This document shows, piece by piece, positions 17,924 to 34,829 of a DNA stretch of 64,000 bases. Location of the stretch: positions 124,001 through 188,000 of the forward strand of contig BJHL01000002.1 of assembly GCA_014192545.1 (NCBI GenBank). The letters run 5' to 3'. The stretch is from Phycisphaerae bacterium. Its GTDB lineage: Bacteria > Planctomycetota > Phycisphaerae > Phycisphaerales > UBA1924. A program made the translations under genes and the position numbers. Below the pieces are notes generated by a model, which did not search any database, had not been told where the DNA came from, and saw only the letters and a program-made list of their open reading frames with translations. How positions within the stretch are numbered: position 1 is the stretch's first letter; every line of letters begins with the position of its first letter.

Positions 17924-17977
17924 TGCGAAGTGTCGCAGCTTGTGAAACTACGCACGAGTTGGAGCGAAACATATTCC

Positions 17978-18847
17978 ATGCGAAGCGGACTGGCGATTTT
18001 CGCGGCGGCAGCACTCACGGGCATCAGCGTGCTCACGGGTTGTTCGCGCACCGACTACTCGCAGGGCACGCCCGAAGAAACCATCGCCAGCGCGAACAAG
18101 ATGGTGGAAGCGGGTGATGCCGAGAAGCTTCCCAATTTGGTGTACGCGGAAAATCCGGACATGCGCAAGTTGCTCAATACCCTGGGCCGGATGACCGGAC
18201 ATCTTGAGGAACTCGCGAAGGAAATCAACACGCGGTATCCGCAGGAAACGGCGGAACTGGCGAAGAAAGCAGAAGAAGCGGCCAAGCAAGGCAAGAGCAC
18301 GAGCTTGATCGGCCAACTCGCGCAGCAAGGGCGTAGGCAAGGTGGTCGGCGCAATCGCAATGCGAAGCCTAGTGAGAGGCCAGGCGAGCGACAAGAACAA
18401 CGCGAGCAGTTTGATGATGCCATCACGCGATTGTTCGCCGATCCGTACTCGTTCTTGCGTGACAATCAAGGCCGCTTGACGACGGCGTACCTGACCGATG
18501 ACAGCGTGGCCCTGCTGTGGGATGGCAAACCCGTGCTGCAGCCCATTGGCATGGTGATGAACAAAGCCGAAGATGGCAAGTGGTATTTTGTGCTGCCGAC
18601 GAATACACCGGGCATCAGCGGCTTTATGCCCAAAACACCCGAGCAGTACAAGCTCATGGGGCAGATGGTTGCCGTGCTCGACAAGGTGGTCATCGACCTG
18701 CGCAAGGAAGTTGCAAGCGGCCAACACTCATCGCTCGAGTCAGTGAGTCGGCGCGCAGGCGAGATGACGTTCCTGCCCGCCGTGCTCACGTTCTACGCAT
18801 ACTCGCAACTGCGCGACGAACAACAAAAAACCCCTGGCGGCAACTGA
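17978..18847 (+). CDS. Putative lipoprotein, function unknown
   Basis: From ATG 17978 (MRSGLAIFAAAALTG) the protein has about 289 residues and a lipobox ending LTGC, so lipid anchoring after signal peptidase II cleavage is likely. GGAG lies somewhat far upstream; an in-frame start at 17930 would bury the signal. After the anchor come a helical charged region (AELAKKAEEAAKQGK), a basic Arg/Gln/Gly linker (about 115-150), and a globular part with LTDDSVALLWDGKPVLQPIG. No family was recognised. A 3'-end hairpin repeat begins 24 bp after the stop. Confidence 0.7.
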   Translation: MRSGLAIFAAAALTGISVLTGCSRTDYSQGTPEETIASANKMVEAGDAEKLPNLVYAENPDMRKLLNTLGRMTGHLEELAKEINTRYPQETAELAKKAEEAAKQGKSTSLIGQLAQQGRRQGGRRNRNAKPSERPGERQEQREQFDDAITRLFADPYSFLRDNQGRLTTAYLTDDSVALLWDGKPVLQPIGMVMNKAEDGKWYFVLPTNTPGISGFMPKTPEQYKLMGQMVAVLDKVVIDLRKEVASGQHSSLESVSRRAGEMTFLPAVLTFYAYSQLRDEQQKTPGGN

Positions 18848-18870
18848 AATATCGCACTTGCAACCCGACG

Positions 18871-18898
18871 CCGGACCTGAGGCTCTGCGAAGGTCCGG
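18871..18898 (+). repeat. 3'-end hairpin repeat, copy 2
   Basis: CCGGACCT and AGGTCCGG enclose GAGGCTCTGCGA. It lies 24 bp behind the stop of the plus-strand lipoprotein gene and is preceded by CCCGACG. It differs from copies 3 and 4 by one loop base. Confidence 0.85.
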
Positions 18899-18972
18899 AT
18901 CGAACTTCTCTGCACTCACTTCCATGCACTCACTATCCCGCACTCACCACCGGCGTGTCGAGGCGTTACTCG

Positions 18973-20292
18973 TTATGGCTTGGGCGGTGGCAGAGCCGGG
19001 CTGGCCGCGGGAGTCTGCATCGTCCAAAACGTCTGGCCCCGTTCATTTCGCGTGATGCGCAAGCCGCCGCGTTCGCGCGGTGCCGGGTTTGTGCGAGTCA
19101 GTGCGGCGATGTCGGCCAGCATAAGTTCGCTTTCAGCCGCGTAGCCATGACGCAACACGCTCACATCGATGCTCGTGACTTCAACCGTGTCAATGTTCGG
19201 CACGACCGTCACTGGCGGCATGTATCCCGCTCGCGGAAAGTCATGCACCCAGTTGCTGGCTTCGAGAGCCATGTCTTTCTTGCTCACGTACAGCGTCGTG
19301 CGCTCGCTGAGCTTGGGGTACGCCTGCGCGAGGTCTTCAAACGCTTCGGCATCAACATCGGCCGCGGCGAGAATGATCTGGCCGAATCTGCGGTCAGGCT
19401 TTTCAAGCAGTTTCTGAGCCACGCGAGCCATCACGCGGTTGCCCATGCTGTGAGCGATAACGTGAACCTTCTCGGCACCGGTTTCATCCAGCATGCGCTC
19501 GAGAAACTTTAGCACGTGCTTCTCGCTGGCTTCAACAGATGCCGCATCGGCGGTGTACCCACCCGCTGCGTCTTTGCTGGGCCAACTGTAAAACGCCGTC
19601 ACGCCTGGCACTTCAAGATCAATCGCCAGTTGAGCGGCTCGCATCGCCGAACACTCGATCGAATTCTTGTAGCCGTGAATGTAGACGAGCACGCACTTCT
19701 GACCAGCAGGAGCATTCGCCAAGTTGGTGCGGATATGGTTGTACAACGAACCCTCGGCGAGGTCATTGGTTTCCTTGATCGTGATCTCGTCATCTTCCCA
19801 CTTGGCAATTTGCTTGTGCCAAGGCGAGCCGAGCGTGCCATTGGGCCGACTATTGGGCACCCGGTAAACAACGGTGCCGAAGAAAGCGTCGCCTCGCAAA
19901 CTGCGTTCGTTGGTAAAGCCCTTGTTGATATCGCTGCGATCAACCGGCTCGCGGTTGGTGCCGTATCAGACGCGCACTAACTTGGCTTTGTCGTTGCTTG
20001 TGGTGTCGATGGGTGATTGGGGCTTCCCCGGATTGCCGTTGCCGGGGGCAGTGCCCGCAGCCGCCTCGGGTTCGTCAGGCGGGCTGCCGACGGGTTCTTC
20101 GGGTACTGGTGGCTCGTTGCCCCCAGGCTGAGGTTTTACGCTCGAGCCGCCTTCCATGTCGTCGGGGTTTGGCTGCGTGCTGCCGGGAGCGGGTGCAGAC
20201 TTTGCGTCGCCCTTCGTGCCGCACGAACTAATGGAAAGCAAAAACGCAGCCACAACGACCAGCGACACAAAAAACAACCCAACCACGAACAC
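18973..20292 (-). pseudogene. DUF900-type alpha/beta hydrolase lipoprotein interrupted by an in-frame TGA
   Basis: One reading frame runs from a GTG at 20292 to 18973 with a single TGA at 19966-19968. Before it are a signal with lipobox-like LSISSC and a Pro/Gly/Glu-rich linker ending KLVRV. After it the frame continues YGTNREPVDRSDINKGFTNE into the hydrolase: VLVYIHGYKNS, FYSWPSKDAAGGYTAD, the nucleophile elbow VIAHSMGNRVM, and DVDAEAF. DUF900 proteins usually begin this domain with V-(W/F)-Y-(G/A)-T-(N/D)-R, so the TGA stands where TGG (Trp) is expected. No frameshift is needed. It may be a recent nonsense mutation, a sequencing error, or a read-through site. The part after the stop alone (from 19899) would lack export signals. 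Confidence 0.75.
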
Positions 20293-20331
20293 GCAGCATC
20301 TGGTTTTCCTCGCCCCTTCGAAAACGAAAAT

Positions 20332-20811
20332 TCAGACTGGTTCAGACAGATCAGCCTCACCAAGCAGTCTGAAATCTTTGCGACGCAGAATTTGGCCCGC
20401 AAGCGTGAGATCATCAACAGCGAGCGCAATAGTGGGGCAGTGGGCCGCGCGCGACATGAGCGGGTAGGCGAAGTGAATCGAAAGTTCGGCACGCAGCAGG
20501 CTCAGACACATGCTGCTCAGCGTGTGATTGCCCGACAGCTCGACGACAAGCACATCGCGCATCGTGTACGCAAGCCCGCTGTCATCCAGCACCCGGCGGG
20601 CCAGCGCGGCCTTCGTCGGAATGATCCGAACCACAGCGTGATCGCTCGCTTCGTTGACGCTGATCGCCGCAAGTTCGGCATGCCGCAACTCAAAGACCTC
20701 TACCAAGTCGTGCAGCTTGCCGACCTTGTTGTGCAAGAAGATAGAGAACTGCGTCACGCTCGGGGGCGAGTATCCATGGGCGGTTTCGAGAGGGGTGGCA
20801 GCTTGGCTCAT
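20332..20811 (-). CDS. ACT-domain protein
   Basis: About 159 residues from ATG 20811 (MSQAATPLETAHGYSPPS). Residues about 20-90 form an ACT domain: QFSIFLHNKVGKLHDLVEVF, then LAAISVNEASDHAVVRIIP. The remainder (VLVVELSGNHTLSSMCLSLL) resembles a second ACT unit. ACT domains bind amino acids or related small ligands and regulate metabolic enzymes, and stand-alone pairs act as regulators. The ligand cannot be read. It ends 39 bp before the DUF900 hydrolase gene on the same strand, so they are probably cotranscribed. No clear ribosome site was seen, so the start is provisional. Confidence 0.75.
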   Translation of the reverse strand: MSQAATPLETAHGYSPPSVTQFSIFLHNKVGKLHDLVEVFELRHAELAAISVNEASDHAVVRIIPTKAALARRVLDDSGLAYTMRDVLVVELSGNHTLSSMCLSLLRAELSIHFAYPLMSRAAHCPTIALAVDDLTLAGQILRRKDFRLLGEADLSEPV

Positions 20812-20919
20812 GACGTTGGGAAAGGTAGCCCGGAGAACGTGCAACGCGACGGTTCCACCGAACACGGGATCAGGGCGGTTGCAAGCAAGATAGTCCTCCA
20901 AGGGTGCTACCGTCGGCGC

Positions 20920-22050
20920 GTGAGGTCAGACGCCCGCCCAGCCACAAGCCCATTGCCAACGACCAAGTCCGCGCCGCTCAAGCCCGTTCTCCCGCGAGAG
21001 ATCGTGAGGAACCGTTGGACTTTCGGCGCTGCGTTGGTCGCAATCGCACTCGTGATCGTTGGCTACTTGCAGGTGACATATGTCACGCGTTCACTGGTGA
21101 TGGCGTGCCTTGTGATTGGGGGAATCGTTGCGATGTTCTGCACGCTGGTATTTGTTTGGGCGCAAATGAGCGCGGCCAAGGCGTTCCTGCTTCCGCACGC
21201 GGGGTTTGTGTGTCCGGTCTGTCACTTCGGGCTGCACGCGCTCCCCGATGAGACCACATGCCCCGAGTGCGGGACAAGCGTCACTCGCGCGGGCGCAGTG
21301 GCGATGTGGGAGCGTGCGCTTTACATGCGGCCACGCTTTCCGCGCACGAACCGACATACGCGCGGGCACGTTACGATTGTGCCAGAACAGAGTGCCGAGG
21401 TCTCGCCTTGGCAATCCTGGACGTGGCGTGAGGCACTGTTGGCGATCGAAGCAGGCGCGGCGCTGCGTGGGTTCAAAGGTGTTCGACTTGCGCCGGACCC
21501 CGTTGCGTTTGATGCGCCGCTGGTGGGGAAGGGCAAGCGCCCGCTGCCTCCGGGGGTGTATTCGTTGCTCGCTTGGGCGGACGAGCGTCAATGGCGTGCG
21601 TTCATTGCGGCTGGACCCGCGGGAACGAGCGACGAAGATGTCGCACCGTCGGTAACGCTGCGGTCGTCGGATCGCATCCGGGTCCTGACGGTGTTGGAGC
21701 ATGCCGAAAACGACGCTGACTTACTGTCATTCCTCAACGGTGCCCGCGGCGAGCAATCTGCGGGCTGGCGCGAAACCCAACTGATTGCATTCGCCGATGC
21801 ATGCGACGGACGCGTGATCTACTTCGCAACCGACCCGCCCGTCGCGAGAGCTGGCTCGATCTTCGCGATCGAGCGTTCGCGAGGCCAACTCGTGTGCCTA
21901 GGCGAGGGCATGGGGCAGTGGCTTACGCGTTTGGCGGTGTGCGATGGCATCGATGCCGCGCTGTTTCCTAGTATGCTTACGCAGGTGCCCGAGCGTGCTC
22001 GATTCTTTCTTCGGAAGGAGTTTTCGAGCGTATTTGCCGGGCAGGCATGA
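20920..22050 (+). CDS. Membrane protein with zinc ribbon, function unknown
   Basis: The preferred start is GTG 20920, giving 376 residues; the frame stays open far upstream, but that part is antisense to the ACT gene. Two transmembrane helices lie at residues about 29-48 (TFGAALVAIALVIVGYLQV) and 55-77. A CPVC...CPEC zinc ribbon follows near residues 97-115, then a soluble domain of about 250 residues with no recognised family. The pattern of two helices plus a zinc ribbon at the membrane face is common among uncharacterised Phycisphaerae proteins. It converges on the IscA-type gene through a shared terminator. Confidence 0.7.
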   Translation: MRSDARPATSPLPTTKSAPLKPVLPREIVRNRWTFGAALVAIALVIVGYLQVTYVTRSLVMACLVIGGIVAMFCTLVFVWAQMSAAKAFLLPHAGFVCPVCHFGLHALPDETTCPECGTSVTRAGAVAMWERALYMRPRFPRTNRHTRGHVTIVPEQSAEVSPWQSWTWREALLAIEAGAALRGFKGVRLAPDPVAFDAPLVGKGKRPLPPGVYSLLAWADERQWRAFIAAGPAGTSDEDVAPSVTLRSSDRIRVLTVLEHAENDADLLSFLNGARGEQSAGWRETQLIAFADACDGRVIYFATDPPVARAGSIFAIERSRGQLVCLGEGMGQWLTRLAVCDGIDAALFPSMLTQVPERARFFLRKEFSSVFAGQA

Positions 22051-26293: not shown

Positions 26294-29200
26294 TCAGAGA
26301 ATATCGCTGACCGGCGTCTTGATGCCGAAAGGCACCGGAGCCGCGCTCCAGCCGCCGCCCAGGAACAAGTCGTAGTGCTCCATCGTCACTTGGAAGGGCA
26401 GTGCACCCACGATGTCGATGGCGAAGAAGCTGGGCAGACCACCGCCGACGATGGCTTGCAGTTCGTGCAGGCGCAACTGCTGGAAGCCGTTGGCCGGAAT
26501 AGTGATGTTGACCGAGGTATTGGGCCGCGGCGTCGCACCAGGCTCGTTGTAGAACAGAATGTTGACCGTGGCGTTGTTGGTTGTTGCCGTGGGGTTGTAG
26601 AAGTAGAGCGTCTCGAAGTACAGTCGGCCCGCCGACGCACCGTTGATGAACGCATCGCCGAAGAAGAAGCGAGTGCCTGCCTCGTACTGCGGGCTGCTCG
26701 CGTCGGCATCGCCGCGTTGAGCTTGGTAGCCCAGCACGCTCACGGGCAGATCGCTGGAGTAACGGATGCCCGCAGCATCGCCCGCGACAAGGCCCAGCGA
26801 GGCGCCAGTCACGATGACTGAGCGACCTGCGGGAACTTGAATGGTGCGCTGGCTGGCGGTGATGTTGTTGCGGATGTAAGTTGCCGACAGACTGACTGTG
26901 GCAGGTGCAGTGGAGGGGTTAAAGAACGTGATTTCGCTGGTCACGCCATTGCCGTTCGTGATGTTGGTGATGGCACCTTGGGTGTTGCCACCTTCTGAGT
27001 CACCCAGCGCTCCGAACGCACTTTCGTTGCCGCCACCAAAGCGGTAAGCAGTAATGCTCGCGACGATGCCTTCAAACGGCTGGGCAAGCAGCTGCGTGGG
27101 CGACGCGACCGGAGTTGCGTTGAGCTGCACGCCGAAGATGCCCGTACCGAGCTGAGCAAAGTCATTGATCGCGAAGCCTTCGCGGCCCAACGGGCGGACG
27201 CGACGAACTTCAGTCAGCGTGACGCGAGAGCCGTCGGCGAGGAAGCCGGTGAGTGTCACATCCACTTCGTAGTTTTGTGGGTTCCAGAAGAGGATGAAGT
27301 TGAGTGCCGCGCCCGGGTTGCGTTCCACACGCGGGAAGCTCCAAGTGGGAGCAACCTTGTCCGTGAACGCATCGCCCGTGCTGCTGCCGAAGTCGTAGTG
27401 GCTCAGCGTTGCACCGAGCGGCTGGATGCTTGCAGGATCAACCGGCACCGTCTGGCCTTGGCTGTTGCTATACGTTGTGGGCACGGTCCAGTCGATGACG
27501 ACTGAGTAAGGCTTGTTGGGAATAACGCCTGGAGCGCGGACGATCTGGCCATCAATGACGGCAGTGATCGTGTACCCATCGCGGCTGTTGGGCTGCATGG
27601 TGCCGCCGGGAAGCTGCGTGGGCGCGGTGCCGTCGTCGTAGTAGAGGGTGATGCGGAAGTCGATCGGGAACACATTGGGATTGACGATGGGCACAAACTC
27701 GCTGACCGTGTCGCCCGAGAAACCTTCGGGATAAACCAATCGGTTGACAGCAGGCTCGGTCATGATGTCAAGCTTGTAGCCGCCGACGCTATCGCCCAAG
27801 CCATCAACGATGACAAAGTAACGAACGTTGGCAGCCGAGCCGAAGGAGAGCTGCGCGGTTGAGCCAGGCAAACCGTCCGCGTCGGTTGCAATCGTGGTCC
27901 GGGTACTGTCGCCGTTGTCACGCAAGACCTGAATCTGTGCGTCCAGCGTCGAGCCGGTCGATGTTGAGAGGCGGAGGAAGACACGGCCCGGGGCAATTGT
28001 GCGGAAGTCGTATAGGTCGCGGTCGCCAGCGGGCTGAATGATGCTCGCTTGCGGGTTGGTCGTCGTGCCAACGCTGCTGCCGTCGCCAGTGCGGGTATTG
28101 AGCACGAGCGTGGTGGGGCTGTTGAAGTCGATGAAGCCCGGGTCGCCACCGCCGCCGCCACCGCCGCTGCCGGTGGGACCTTGGATGGTGATGCGATACT
28201 CGCCGATGGGCGTGGCGGAAGCAACACCATTTTGTGCATCAACCAGCACGAAGTAGCGCTGACCTGCGGTTGTGTTGTTGATGGTAAACACCGCGGCTTG
28301 TGCTGCGGCAGAAGCGTTGACCGTGCCAATCAGAGTAAAAGTGCTGCTGCCATCATCGCGGTAGACGCGGATGCGAGGCGCAATGGTGCCCAGATTGCTG
28401 ACAAACGGCGTCAGCGTGACGTTGTGAACGCCAGCGTTGAGGACCGTGAACGAGAACAGGTCATCGTCCGACTGCGGGTTGATGCGCGGGTTGCTGATGT
28501 CGTTGGGAAGATCAGTACCAACTTGACCTCGGCCTGTCGTGCCATCGATCGTGATAGGTGTTGCGAGGTCCCACTCGGTGCGGTTCGCGTGATCGTCAAG
28601 CACTGGAGCAGCGACATCGAGGATGTATTCTCCAGTGAGTGCGGTGTTGGCATTGGTGCCGAAGCCGAAGCTCTCGACAGCGATGTAAATGTTCTCGCCA
28701 CGGTTCACGTTGCTCAGTGTTGAAGAATCAAATGATGCCGTGACGCTATTGGTCGTGAGGTTGTCTGGCAGCTCCGCCGTTGCAAGAACTGTAAAGGTGC
28801 CGTTTGTGAGCTTCAGCAGTGACAATCGGCCACGCAGGAAGCTGCCTGCCGCGCGGGTGAGCGTCACGCTGACGTTGCCTTCGCTGGGCAACACGAACCG
28901 AAGCAGATCTGTATCGGCGGCGACTTCAATATTGCCGGGCGTCGATGCAAGACCAGTGAGGGAATCAAGAACGATGGGAGTCGCCGCAGTTGCCTGACCG
29001 TTGTCGAAGGTGCCATCACCGTTGGTGTCTGCGTCGGCGTGGTCATCAGTAGAGTCAAACGCAGCAGTCAACGTGTAGTTGCCGATGTCAGCAACGCCGT
29101 CGGTGCCTTCAACCACGATGTAGTAGAATCGGTATTCGCGGAAGTCGCCGTTGTTGACCGAGCCGCGTGAACGCGCGGGCGTGATCGACGCGAGCGTTGT

Positions 29201-32200
29201 CGCGATGTCAGGCTGGCCCGGCGCGGGCGTTGTGGCTTCGCCGATGCCCACGCGCATCCGAATGACGCCGTTCACGCCGCTGGGGTTCTCCGTGACTTCG
29301 TACACCGAGATGCGCGGCGAAAGGTTCGTCGTCGCCGACTCGACGGTAAAGCGAACGCGCTGATATTCAGGGAATTCGAAGCGGAAGACATCCGTGTCGC
29401 CCGCAGCCTCAATGCGACCGGCGATGCTCGTTGAGCCCAGGAAGTCATCGAAGACGAAATCGGTGGCATTCCAGAACTGGTTCGAGTTCGCATGATCGTC
29501 GACAAACGGAACGCCCGAGACTTCGATCTGGTACGTACCTTCGCTGGTTCCTTGACCCGCGACATCGATCGCAAACGTTTCGCCCGCGTTGGCCGCGAAC
29601 GTGAGTGCGATCGTGCCGCCACCTTGCTGGATGCCGTCGCCGACTTGGGCTCCGTTTTCACGGAAGACCGTGAACTGTCCATTCAGAGTCGAGCCGCCAG
29701 TGCGCGTGAGCCGAACGGTAACGTTTCCACTGCCAGGCGTCGTGAACTTGAACGCGTCAAAATCCTGCAGTCGCGAGGGTGTGTTGTTAATAATGCCCGC
29801 AATCACGCCGCGACCGTTGTTGGGATCGCCCTGCACATCGCCGATCGGAATCGGTGTTGCCAGATCGATGTCAAGCGAATCGGTGTGATCATCAACCACA
29901 ACGTTGCCGCCCTCGAAATCGGTGATCTGCTCAGGCATTGCGTTGATGAGCAACTGATAGCTGCCAAACGCCCGGCTCCAGTCGATTTCAGGCTTCACGT
30001 TTGCGACACGGCTGTCAGCTTGGTTCGGCGCTGGCGGCGCAATGGAGCCGTCAACCCACTTCTGGCCGCTTTCGACCTGAATGAAGTAGACCTGGCCAGC
30101 AACCACCGGAATCAAAACACGGGGGTCTTCATTCCTGAACAGTGCATTAAGCGTGCCAGCGGACGATGCGTCCACCAGATCACGATTTGCACCGACGACC
30201 CCTTCATAACGATACGCCGGGTTGTCGTTATTGTAACCGATCTGCGTGAAGTCGTTCGCGAAGACGCGAAGAGCCGAGTCGAATCGGCTGTCGTAGGTGT
30301 TCGTCTTACCGTTGGGAATCCACGGACCGGTCACACCAGCGTTCGCATTGGGCGCACGGCGAGCCGCAGGGCCAGCATTCTGCTGACCGTACACATCGTT
30401 GAGCGCGGTCGTACCAACACGGATTTCAGCCACGCCGCTGAACTCGGCACGGAAGAAGTACACGTCCGTGTCGTTGATGTCTTGAATCAGACCCAACCCA
30501 CCAGCGAAGGTCGTACCGCCGTCAAGTGATGGATTGATGAACCGACCGGAAATGTCGTTTCCGGTAACAGCCTGGCTGGGCTGATTGGGATTGACGACGA
30601 TGTCGGTGTCGCCCGTTGCCAAAATGCCCGCAGTGCGAGCCTGCGTGGCGTTCGTGAAGTCGCCTTCGTCCGCGGTCTCACGGAACGTACCAACCGCGCG
30701 ACCCATGTTGTCACGCACGCCATCGGCATTCACATCCTGACCACCGGCATCTGCCGTGACGCTGAACTGGTAGCGACCGGTGCCGTTCGCCGAGACGGAG
30801 ATGTAGTAAGTCTCGCCGCCCCAGATGTCAGCCGAAAGAATGCGCTCAGGCAGAACCGAACCTGGCGCGGCAAGTGACGGGTCGATTGCGCCGGGCACGT
30901 CGTTGGGTGGGGCAATCGTGTCGTTGGTATAAAGCGTGTTGCCCTTACTGTCGTACACAGTGATGCTGAAGTTGCCCGTCGTGCCGCCACCGAACACGGG
31001 GTTCAGTGTAATAGCAAGCCTTGTGGCGGCACGGTCATGGCGATCCCACTCGCCCGCAACGCCATCATCAAACGATGTGAGAGCAAACACGGCGGCGTCC
31101 GGTGCAGGATTGCCCGTATTCACCACACCGCCGGGAATGGAGCCATCTCCGGCGCGGTTGTTACCAAGCGCTGTCAGGGCGAAGAAGTCATCGTTGGCAA
31201 ACTGGCGCGTCTGTGCGGCAAATTGAATAACGTTGTTTGCCGGAACTGGCGGCAACTGCGGGTTGGCCGGCTGCACGGCAGTGAACTGCCCGCCGATGTA
31301 GAGCACTTCCTGCGGGTTGCCACCGTCGAGTTCGTCTTCGATGCCCGGTTCCTGAGCATCCGTGAATGCGTGCAGCGAGAAGACCGGTCCATCAGGCGTA
31401 CCGATCACAAATTGGTCGACAATCTGTGCGGGTCGGTACGTGACGAGATTGGTCTGATCGTTCTCGAATACGAAGTCGCCGCCGACAACGAGAACGGGGG
31501 CGACTTCGTTGCCGTTGATGTCCGGCGGATTGTAAACTTCGAGCGCACGAATTGAGCCGACAAAGCCTGCTCCTGGGTTGGCGATCTCATCGACCCATGG
31601 GTTCCCGTACATCAGCCGCGGCGTGTAGACCGCACGAGCACTGTCTTGCAGGGCATCAGGAATGCCCCAGACAACCAGATCAGACGAACGCCTGTTCACG
31701 ATGGTGGGAGCCACTTCCGGATCGCCATTGGTTGGCGTGGAATACGTGAAGTTTGCCGTGAAGTCGCCACCGATGTAAAGCACCGGAATCGGCGCATCGT
31801 CCGACGTTGGGTCTTGGTCAAGATCAGAGTTGTCCAAGTCGATCTCGAAGACTTGCAGCGCAAAGACCGTCCCATTGATCGTATCGGTTGCCGGCACCGG
31901 TGTGCCCGTGTTGATCGGCTGTACCTCCGCGCCGTTGAAGCGGGCGATGCCGCCAGTGAACGCACCACCGATGTACAACGAAGGCGGCGGATTGCCAGGA
32001 TCAGCGACTGCGGGAATGACGGGCGGGCCCGCCTGGAAGGCGCGACCGTTGCCAGCGTCGGGCGCGTCATACACCGCCAGCGCGAACACTGGACCGTCAA
32101 CACCTTGAGCAGCAGGCAACCAGCCGAACTGGAAGCTGAAGAATGCAAGATTGTCCGCCGCAGTACCGTCAGCATCGGCAAAATCACCGCCGATGAAGAG

Positions 32201-34396
32201 GCTCCGCGGGAACGGAATGTCACCTTGCGTGAACGGAGGAGTGGGATCCGAATCATCCGGATCGAACGGCTCTGGGTCGTATTCCGTGATCGCATTCACG
32301 GGACCATCAGTGCTGCCCAGGAATGCGTTCCATTCGTAACGACCATTGTTGGGATTGAAAATCCATGCGGCGAGGTTGTCGAGCGTGGCCAACTGACCTT
32401 GCCCGTCAATGAAGTTCAATGTGAAATCGCCGCCCACGACGAGAACCGGTCCCAGGGCGGCGCCAGCGCCGTCTGGCAGCCAGTTGAACAGTGCTCGAAT
32501 CTCAGCGCGATCTGTGCCAACTGTTGCCGTGTTGTTCACAAAGCCCAATTGAACCGGGCCATTCTGCGTCTGAATTTCGTTCTGTGCACCGGTGAACCAG
32601 TAATCTGCAGCGTCCCAAACCGTCAGGTTGCGCGAGTCAACGGGGAACGGACTGTCAGGCTCGGCCCGGCCAAAGTCACCACCGATGTAAAGCGCGGTGC
32701 CGGTGTTATCGTCATTGCCTGCATAAGTGTCAAGCATGTCGTACGGAGCAGTGAACTGGAACAGATCGGTATCGCCCGCTTGGTAGATACGACCTTCGCC
32801 GGTTGCCGTCGTGCGCCAGTTGCGATCGCGGATTGGGTTGCCGTACGAGTCAACACTCAGGAACGGATCGCTCCAAGGCAAGGGCGTTGCCTGACGCAGA
32901 TCACGATTGGTATTCTGTCCTGTGGTGTTACCGGGGACAAACGGGCTGTCAAGATGGTCGTCATTGCCTTGGCCAGGCGTTTGCGAGAAGGTGTGGTTCG
33001 CTTCGATGAACAGTTGGAACTGCGGCCCGTTGCCAGTCGCAAAACCGTCCACAACCACGAAGTAGCGTTCATTGCCGACAAGTTGAACTTCAAGTTGTGG
33101 CACAAGCCCGCTGAAGTTGTTATTGAACGCAATCTGTTGGCCAGCGGAATTGTACAACCGCAGTGCAGGATCGGTGACGGGCGCAAGACCGGTTGGAACC
33201 GCCGTGATAATGGCTTGGCCGCTGCCTTGGGCAACGAACGAATAGCTCTTGCTCTGGAATGAAGGCGGATTCGTGTTGGGGGCAGGAACCGGATCAGGCG
33301 CGGGGTTTGCGGGGGCAAATCCATCGAAGGCATCCGTGATCGAAGGACTGCGACGCGTCAAACGATCAAGATCGATGGGCGATGCAATACCGTCAACCAG
33401 CAGATAAAACGCGCCAGTTGCAAGCTGCAAGTTGTTGCTGCGCACTTCGTCGCTGCGAACGCGGATGAAGAATGTCTCACCTGGACGTGCGCGGAACGTT
33501 GCAAACGCGTCGTTGAAACGTCCGGTCTGTTCATCCGACGTCACCAGCACGCCCTGAGCCGTGTACACATCGATGTGCGTATCAAGCCGGTTGTTGAGTG
33601 TGCTATTCGCGCCTTGCGCGTTCACCGTCACCAGACTGTCCCAATTCACCGTATTGGGCGCGTCATACCGGTACACGATCTCGTCTTGACGTGTCCTTGC
33701 ATTCAACGCGCCCAAACCGCCGAGTTGACCGACGATAGCTTGTGGCAGAATGGGCGGATTAACCGTTGAGTCAGGAGCAGGAGAGCCCAGCGCGCGAGCG
33801 ATGCCGGTATCCTCCGGAATGTCGCCGCCGAGCGTGAAGGTCGCATTCGTCGTAACGATGCGCAGTGTGTAGTTGCCCTGAGGCGAACCCGGGTCGCTCT
33901 TCACGACTATGCGATACTCAGTGGCAGCGGTTGCAACAAATCCCGCCCAGCCATCGCGCTGGAAGCCGCTGGTCAGCGTGCCGTTGTTGGTGCCGCTTGC
34001 AATCAGCGTGGTGCCTGCGGCGTTCCACACTTCAACAGCGGTGTCGAGATTGCTGACGGGATTTTCGTTGGCGGTGTCGCCAAGCACGGTCACAAAGCCC
34101 GACGCCGGCGCGACAAATCGGTACGTGTCGTTGTTCGTGCTGACCAGCGCAGGGTTGATGTCGCCCGCAACAACGATGCGACCGCTGCCGTTGGCTGCTG
34201 GCAGAGCCAGCGGAGCCGCAAAGCTGCCTTCGAGCAACTGGCGATCTTCAAGGCGCTCGACCTTCTCGTGGTTGGCTGCACTCAGTCCCAGCGCTCTGCC
34301 CATCGCGCGGCTAAGCAGTGAGGTCAATGAACTCCCGCGCGAGCGCGTCATGCGGCGGCGAAGGGAAAGGGTCGAACGAATGTCCCTGCTATCCAT
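26294..34396 (-). CDS. Giant LEPR-XLL-type extracellular protein with PPC domains and a seven-repeat propeller
   Basis: 2700 residues from ATG 34396 (GGAG 6 bp upstream; GTG 34408 less likely). Residues about 45-55 hold RLEDRQLLEGSF, the planctomycete extracellular N-terminal motif, behind an Arg/Ser-rich leader without a classic signal peptide. Then come at least three pre-peptidase C-terminal (PPC) beta domains (about 70-470), marked by blocks such as YRIVVKSDPGSPQGNYTLRI. About 565-1110 contain seven (L/V)-(Y/F/V)-(I/V)-G-G-(D/A/Q)-F repeats, interpreted as a seven-bladed propeller. More PPC units follow to about 2210, several beginning DDHA or DDHT. The last 490 residues carry four repeats with V/F-NPxxxxV (IVNPN, FWNPQ, FFNPS, FYNPT). 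Likely cell-surface or matrix adhesin; ligand unknown. Monocistronic, with a strong terminator. Confidence 0.85.
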   Translation of the reverse strand: MDSRDIRSTLSLRRRMTRSRGSSLTSLLSRAMGRALGLSAANHEKVERLEDRQLLEGSFAAPLALPAANGSGRIVVAGDINPALVSTNNDTYRFVAPASGFVTVLGDTANENPVSNLDTAVEVWNAAGTTLIASGTNNGTLTSGFQRDGWAGFVATAATEYRIVVKSDPGSPQGNYTLRIVTTNATFTLGGDIPEDTGIARALGSPAPDSTVNPPILPQAIVGQLGGLGALNARTRQDEIVYRYDAPNTVNWDSLVTVNAQGANSTLNNRLDTHIDVYTAQGVLVTSDEQTGRFNDAFATFRARPGETFFIRVRSDEVRSNNLQLATGAFYLLVDGIASPIDLDRLTRRSPSITDAFDGFAPANPAPDPVPAPNTNPPSFQSKSYSFVAQGSGQAIITAVPTGLAPVTDPALRLYNSAGQQIAFNNNFSGLVPQLEVQLVGNERYFVVVDGFATGNGPQFQLFIEANHTFSQTPGQGNDDHLDSPFVPGNTTGQNTNRDLRQATPLPWSDPFLSVDSYGNPIRDRNWRTTATGEGRIYQAGDTDLFQFTAPYDMLDTYAGNDDNTGTALYIGGDFGRAEPDSPFPVDSRNLTVWDAADYWFTGAQNEIQTQNGPVQLGFVNNTATVGTDRAEIRALFNWLPDGAGAALGPVLVVGGDFTLNFIDGQGQLATLDNLAAWIFNPNNGRYEWNAFLGSTDGPVNAITEYDPEPFDPDDSDPTPPFTQGDIPFPRSLFIGGDFADADGTAADNLAFFSFQFGWLPAAQGVDGPVFALAVYDAPDAGNGRAFQAGPPVIPAVADPGNPPPSLYIGGAFTGGIARFNGAEVQPINTGTPVPATDTINGTVFALQVFEIDLDNSDLDQDPTSDDAPIPVLYIGGDFTANFTYSTPTNGDPEVAPTIVNRRSSDLVVWGIPDALQDSARAVYTPRLMYGNPWVDEIANPGAGFVGSIRALEVYNPPDINGNEVAPVLVVGGDFVFENDQTNLVTYRPAQIVDQFVIGTPDGPVFSLHAFTDAQEPGIEDELDGGNPQEVLYIGGQFTAVQPANPQLPPVPANNVIQFAAQTRQFANDDFFALTALGNNRAGDGSIPGGVVNTGNPAPDAAVFALTSFDDGVAGEWDRHDRAATRLAITLNPVFGGGTTGNFSITVYDSKGNTLYTNDTIAPPNDVPGAIDPSLAAPGSVLPERILSADIWGGETYYISVSANGTGRYQFSVTADAGGQDVNADGVRDNMGRAVGTFRETADEGDFTNATQARTAGILATGDTDIVVNPNQPSQAVTGNDISGRFINPSLDGGTTFAGGLGLIQDINDTDVYFFRAEFSGVAEIRVGTTALNDVYGQQNAGPAARRAPNANAGVTGPWIPNGKTNTYDSRFDSALRVFANDFTQIGYNNDNPAYRYEGVVGANRDLVDASSAGTLNALFRNEDPRVLIPVVAGQVYFIQVESGQKWVDGSIAPPAPNQADSRVANVKPEIDWSRAFGSYQLLINAMPEQITDFEGGNVVVDDHTDSLDIDLATPIPIGDVQGDPNNGRGVIAGIINNTPSRLQDFDAFKFTTPGSGNVTVRLTRTGGSTLNGQFTVFRENGAQVGDGIQQGGGTIALTFAANAGETFAIDVAGQGTSEGTYQIEVSGVPFVDDHANSNQFWNATDFVFDDFLGSTSIAGRIEAAGDTDVFRFEFPEYQRVRFTVESATTNLSPRISVYEVTENPSGVNGVIRMRVGIGEATTPAPGQPDIATTLASITPARSRGSVNNGDFREYRFYYIVVEGTDGVADIGNYTLTAAFDSTDDHADADTNGDGTFDNGQATAATPIVLDSLTGLASTPGNIEVAADTDLLRFVLPSEGNVSVTLTRAAGSFLRGRLSLLKLTNGTFTVLATAELPDNLTTNSVTASFDSSTLSNVNRGENIYIAVESFGFGTNANTALTGEYILDVAAPVLDDHANRTEWDLATPITIDGTTGRGQVGTDLPNDISNPRINPQSDDDLFSFTVLNAGVHNVTLTPFVSNLGTIAPRIRVYRDDGSSTFTLIGTVNASAAAQAAVFTINNTTAGQRYFVLVDAQNGVASATPIGEYRITIQGPTGSGGGGGGGDPGFIDFNSPTTLVLNTRTGDGSSVGTTTNPQASIIQPAGDRDLYDFRTIAPGRVFLRLSTSTGSTLDAQIQVLRDNGDSTRTTIATDADGLPGSTAQLSFGSAANVRYFVIVDGLGDSVGGYKLDIMTEPAVNRLVYPEGFSGDTVSEFVPIVNPNVFPIDFRITLYYDDGTAPTQLPGGTMQPNSRDGYTITAVIDGQIVRAPGVIPNKPYSVVIDWTVPTTYSNSQGQTVPVDPASIQPLGATLSHYDFGSSTGDAFTDKVAPTWSFPRVERNPGAALNFILFWNPQNYEVDVTLTGFLADGSRVTLTEVRRVRPLGREGFAINDFAQLGTGIFGVQLNATPVASPTQLLAQPFEGIVASITAYRFGGGNESAFGALGDSEGGNTQGAITNITNGNGVTSEITFFNPSTAPATVSLSATYIRNNITASQRTIQVPAGRSVIVTGASLGLVAGDAAGIRYSSDLPVSVLGYQAQRGDADASSPQYEAGTRFFFGDAFINGASAGRLYFETLYFYNPTATTNNATVNILFYNEPGATPRPNTSVNITIPANGFQQLRLHELQAIVGGGLPSFFAIDIVGALPFQVTMEHYDLFLGGGWSAAPVPFGIKTPVSDIL

Positions 34397-34829
34397 AGTC
34401 GGCTCCACCGACGGACTCGTGCTGGTTCGTCATACGTCACGACGAACCAGCGTCCGCCAACATCACTCAACGAGTCGGCTCACGCTCTATCCCAACGTGT
34501 CGGCTCGAGATTCCGCATCTCGAACTCTTGCCCTGGTGGGCAGCGTACTTTCGCACGCTCCCGGGCTAGGCCTGGGCTGTGCGTTGGTCAGCACGGTAGC
34601 CCTCTGCCTGTTGGGTCGTTACAGGATACAAACTCTGGTGGGGGTCTGTCTAGTCCCCCCCTACCAAGAATGAACCAAATAACTTGGCATTCGTCCGGTA
34701 GGGGTTGGGGGTCGCCTTCGCCCACTCGTCCGGGCGCACCTCTGGCGCGTCCGGGTCTATCCCGTTGGCAACTATTCGTGGCTCGCTGGCGCGGGTTGCG
34801 TCGTTCTTACCAGATGGACTTCCATGCAA
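34397..34829. other. Intergenic region upstream of the giant gene
   Basis: 433 bp between the giant gene and the racemase-like gene, both on the minus strand. No gene is supported. A short GGGGG/CCCCC inverted pair around 34640-34665 and C/G-rich stretches are present. A TATCCT on the minus strand near 34625 could be a weak -10, but no matching -35 was found, so the giant gene's promoter is not assigned. Confidence 0.45.

Follow-up and report, generated by a model that had tools for sequence, protein, structure and literature searches.

In PMC11878206, DUF900 is described as an alpha/beta-hydrolase domain of unknown function, and a Rhizobium member of the family is described there as having a lipoprotein-type N-terminus, assigned with low probability. 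A similar N-terminus is found in the gene considered here, which lies in the window, the whole 64,000-nucleotide stretch analyzed (C2:124001-188000), from a source genome of 3.66 Mb in 15 contigs with a completeness of 94.13 and a contamination of 0.16. On the minus strand, a frame from 20292 to 18973 comprises 439 codons and a terminal stop and holds exactly one internal stop, a TGA at 19966-19968 (residue 109), as the first-pass annotation had reported. The N-terminal part of this frame (19969-20292, minus strand) begins at a GTG (20292) and encodes a hydrophobic segment, a Cys lipobox, and a linker with an MEGGS motif, with 108 codons before the TGA. The catalytic half 3' of the TGA (18973-19965, minus strand; 330 codons) has no further stop until its terminal TAA and contains the whole match to the PF05990 (DUF900) profile, which at E = 4.7e-36 and 124.8 bits, against a curated cut-off of 20.5, places it in the family. 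The HGYKN sequence and the nucleophile elbow, HSMGN, are both intact in this half, in agreement with the earlier description of the downstream hydrolase motifs. The residues His281, Ser282, Asp312, Asp340, and His382, which fall in the nucleophile elbow and the conserved downstream Asp and His columns and have putative catalytic roles, are invariant across the 15-row alignment A2. In the structure predicted for the read-through product (mean pLDDT of 73.9, pTM of 0.74), residue 109 falls within the first strand of the domain (residues 104-112). Another DUF900 gene, distant and intact, is present in the same genome outside the window (C2:106892-107674, L001), with an open frame of 535 aa.

Among 61 genomes searched at E ≤ 0.001, the source genome included, 17 have a match: the source genome itself, all three congeners, 8 of the 33 other family members, and 5 of the 24 genomes from the order. 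This patchy distribution makes loss of the gene plausible. The close homologs number four, three from the congeners (JALHOJ010000010.1, L004/L044; JAIYDA010000088.1, L005/L047; CALLYM010000130.1, L006/L045) and one from a lake genome (CAILKP010000116.1, L046; uncultured bacterium, isolate ErkenSummer_bin-5518). Like the window gene, all four have a lipoprotein-like signal, and their identity to it across the catalytic part is 52-56%; unlike the window gene, they are uninterrupted, have an in-frame ATG ahead of the signal, and have Trp (TGG) at the site of the TGA. The stop, which lies within V-R-V-stop-Y-G-T-N-R, is thus a disabling lesion absent from intact relatives, with a sense codon in its place in 4/4. 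More distant homologs, read by eye, mostly have Phe at this site, with other residues also seen, and the first-pass annotation was therefore right in expecting Trp or Phe at this point of V-x-Y-G-T-N-R. Trp in alphaproteobacterial matches is left out of the evidence, since the scan pattern itself demanded Trp. The linker is longer in the three congeners, and a deletion within it in the window gene was considered as an extra lesion; this was dropped because the intact L046 also has a short linker, with the motif MEGGSG. The internal TAA in L008 is probably the natural end of that gene, as its open frame looks complete.

The reading that best fits these observations is that an exported PF05990 hydrolase gene has become a young, recently inactivated pseudogene, probably with two lesions, and we consider this likely. 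The identity of 52-56% is near the median of 56.5% for 95 best-match stretches between the source genome and its sampled relatives, so the window protein appears typical of the gene pool of the genus. In a tree of the catalytic part, the window sequence lies outside the four homologs on a branch of 0.56 from the shared node, versus 0.50-0.82 for theirs; because this branch is not longer, constraint appears to have lasted until recently. By branch lengths against the four homologs, the part after the TGA has no signature of faster evolution or long decay, and the pseudogene is probably too young to show relaxed selection. The window sequence deviates at two columns that are the same in 13 of 14 relatives (Gly to Arg and Val to Met), which may be early decay or chance. 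It also deviates at 26 of the 154 columns that are uniform among the other four, while each of the other homologs does so at 5-10 of 133-138; this excess was rejected as a sign of decay, being accounted for by the position of the window sequence outside the four.

The first-pass annotation had called the gene intact except for one TGA, so that a single base would divide it. This is probably wrong, because the best-placed start codon does not agree in frame with the rest of the gene. An ATG at 20297-20299 (minus strand) has an AGGA site 7 nt upstream, lies 7 bases upstream of GTG 20292, and is shifted by one frame relative to the hydrophobic segment and lipobox; its frame (20231-20299) points to a probable frameshift lesion between this ATG and the hydrophobic segment, and translation from the ATG would end after 23 codons. 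The ribosome-binding-site spacing of 7 nt for this ATG is the modal value of the genome, versus 14 nt for GTG 20292. With the first ATG taken as a rough proxy for the true start, 53 starts of long open reading frames bear a site (AGGA, GGAG, or GAGG), which is at 6-9 nt in 38 of them and at 14 nt in none; random internal positions, drawn without a fixed seed as a control, have a site at 6-9 nt in 2/196. A GTG without a ribosome-binding site would not be abnormal, because 143 of the 196 first-ATG starts have no recognized site within 3-16 nt.

Lipoprotein signals are usually positively charged ahead of the hydrophobic stretch. The ATG-started signal peptide of the homolog L004 has 26 residues up to the Cys with an Arg near the start, while the window's GTG-started form is free of charged residues ahead of the hydrophobic segment. 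The frame from GTG 20292 is itself open, and the second lesion is proposed from the mismatch in frame of the best-placed ATG. If that ATG is the true start, as we infer, a frameshift is very probably present between it and the hydrophobic segment, a stretch that includes a run of six T. The export signal that had been attributed to the upstream part is therefore there in one sense, as a hydrophobic segment and lipobox in the GTG frame, but judged from the sequence the real start is probably in another frame. The gene would then be disabled twice, by a nonsense codon where the first beta-strand of the domain is encoded and by a frameshift between start codon and signal peptide. Ribosomes starting at the fallback GTG 20292 would stop after 108 codons and leave a stub without the domain, and the catalytic half alone would lack most of the first strand and the export signal.

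Whether such lesions belong to the organism depends on the quality of the assembly. Under a local sequence error, the organism would have an intact gene, and the assembly would contain one miscalled base and perhaps also a run of the wrong length. The species is represented by one genome among those found, the part after the TGA shows no acceleration, and the run of six T lies where the frame changes, homopolymer runs being a usual site of length errors; all of these are compatible with an error. Against it, 484 kb of the genome (the window, L042, and L061-L080) was compared with 4228 stop-to-stop open reading frames from stretches of the relatives, and 95 non-overlapping stretches (83.4 kb) were matched at >= 35% identity, that is, at least that value. 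Five of the 95 were flagged, of which four are alignments that extend past one end of a gene or track an antisense frame. The window gene is the only one with a stop inside a gene; the 94 other matched stretches (82.1 kb) have neither other internal stops nor frameshift pairs, and all 45 matches to the ABC_tran domain are free of stops. Frameshift pairs, meaning neighboring matches in different frames, are absent from all 592 match rows at E ≤ 1e-12, in a screen whose references are stop-to-stop open reading frames from parts of two congeners and a few loci and which is blind to frameshifts near gene starts, including the one proposed here. A generally poor assembly was accordingly rejected, with a stop inside a gene in 1/95 stretches and no frameshift pairs. 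Two errors within 1.3 kb would be unlucky at that rate unless local coverage were poor, and two lesions in one gene with none in the 94 other stretches argue for decay over scattered error. A sequence error is thus unlikely, although it deserves some weight as the chief rival of the pseudogene reading, and we infer that the organism itself carries the lesions and makes no active enzyme. Among the four options that had been offered for the stop, the young pseudogene is the best supported, given the intact homologs, the lack of acceleration after the TGA, the probable second lesion, and the absence of other breaks from the sample.

Functional read-through had been another of these options. Recoding of the UGA, as Trp or selenocysteine, would be consistent with a frame that stays open past the TGA and with a conserved Trp at the site, but the remainder of the evidence is contrary. 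TGA is the commonest terminator, ending 139 of 242 long open reading frames in 484 kb of the genome, and release factor 2 (RF2) is present (398 bits versus a cut-off of 370). The selA profile has no match in the genome, the best selB match has 164.8 bits, which is under the cut-off of 242.25, and no tRNA-Sec candidate is over the gathering score, the best 8 of 12 candidates being Leu, Ser, Cys, and Tyr tRNAs. Two overlapping stretches around and after the TGA show no stable RNA structure relative to shuffled sequences (z of 0.03 and -0.47). A TGA-as-Trp genetic code was rejected, as none of the 45 ABC_tran domain matches has an in-frame stop, RF2 is kept, and TGA is the commonest terminator; membership among selenoproteins or UGA read-through genes was likewise rejected, since selA, SelB, tRNA-Sec, and a structure after the UGA would be expected. 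The absence of selA, the sub-threshold tRNA-Sec, the presence of RF2, the usage of TGA, and the clean ABC_tran domains therefore make recoding very unlikely. Read-through would also leave the probable second lesion uncured, and no second case was found in the genome samples tested, so that with the selenocysteine machinery and post-stop structure also lacking, this option falls away; we regard it as extremely improbable. It is scarcely to be expected, in particular, that UGA is read as Trp at a useful rate under the standard code from the GTG start, which would give a low level of exported hydrolase as a natural dosage control. The decay of the gene is of an ordinary kind, and no signs of an unusual genetic code were found.

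A difference of phase had also been suggested. No inverted repeats occur in 18700-20700 and the direct repeats there are weak and in two copies only; the run of six T is short for slippage. A phase-variable gene was rejected because the locus offers neither a suitable repeat tract nor an invertible pair of repeats, and the suggestion does not hold for 18700-20700, which has no such repeat or invertible element.

The complete PF05990 match located 3' of the TGA, in a half with no added stop, might also be taken to mean that the gene has been split into functional parts, with the downstream half restarted internally (for example, at TTG 19899) as a cytosolic hydrolase, or with the stub having a role of its own. 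A protein restarted in this way, however, would be missing both the first strand (residues 104-112) and the export signal of the close homologs, and in all four of these the gene is in one piece. A functional split is for these reasons quite improbable, and inactivation of the whole gene is preferred.

Upstream of the hydrolase frame on the same strand is an intact gene for an ACT domain pair (20332-20901, minus strand; PF19571 by Pfam profile match). Its stop is approximately 30 nt before ATG 20299, and from this spacing the two probably share one transcript. A plus-strand open reading frame at 20017-22050 (677 aa) is antisense to the ACT-domain gene and the N-terminal stub; apparently only its later part, from approximately 20947, is a real, divergently transcribed gene, and this part has a hydrophobic segment followed by cysteine pairs of the CPVC/CPEC type. 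The convergent plus-strand neighbor at 17930-18847 has no Pfam match and reads as lipoprotein-like, with a hydrophobic segment and then LTGC. The longest open frame of the window is a single one of 2704 aa at 26294-34408 (minus strand).

For annotation, the catalytic half should be described as a piece of a broken gene and not as a cytosolic hydrolase. A start region of this kind is hidden when a gene is read frame by frame, and it needs to be checked before a gene is called intact but for one stop. The significance beyond annotation is small; read-through would be of interest if true, yet nothing found supports it.

In comparison with known systems, the window gene shares the general alpha/beta-hydrolase fold and the nucleophile region with solved lipases and polyester hydrolases, such as Bacillus subtilis lipase A and the PETase family. 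The likeness is weak, with a sequence match spanning approximately 31-47 profile positions for the lipase A entries and a query-normalized TM-score of approximately 0.3. The structural matches are of the general alpha/beta-hydrolase kind only and are silent on substrate. The nearest described counterparts are the intact members of PF05990 (DUF900), from which the window gene differs by its internal stop and the probable frameshift at its start.
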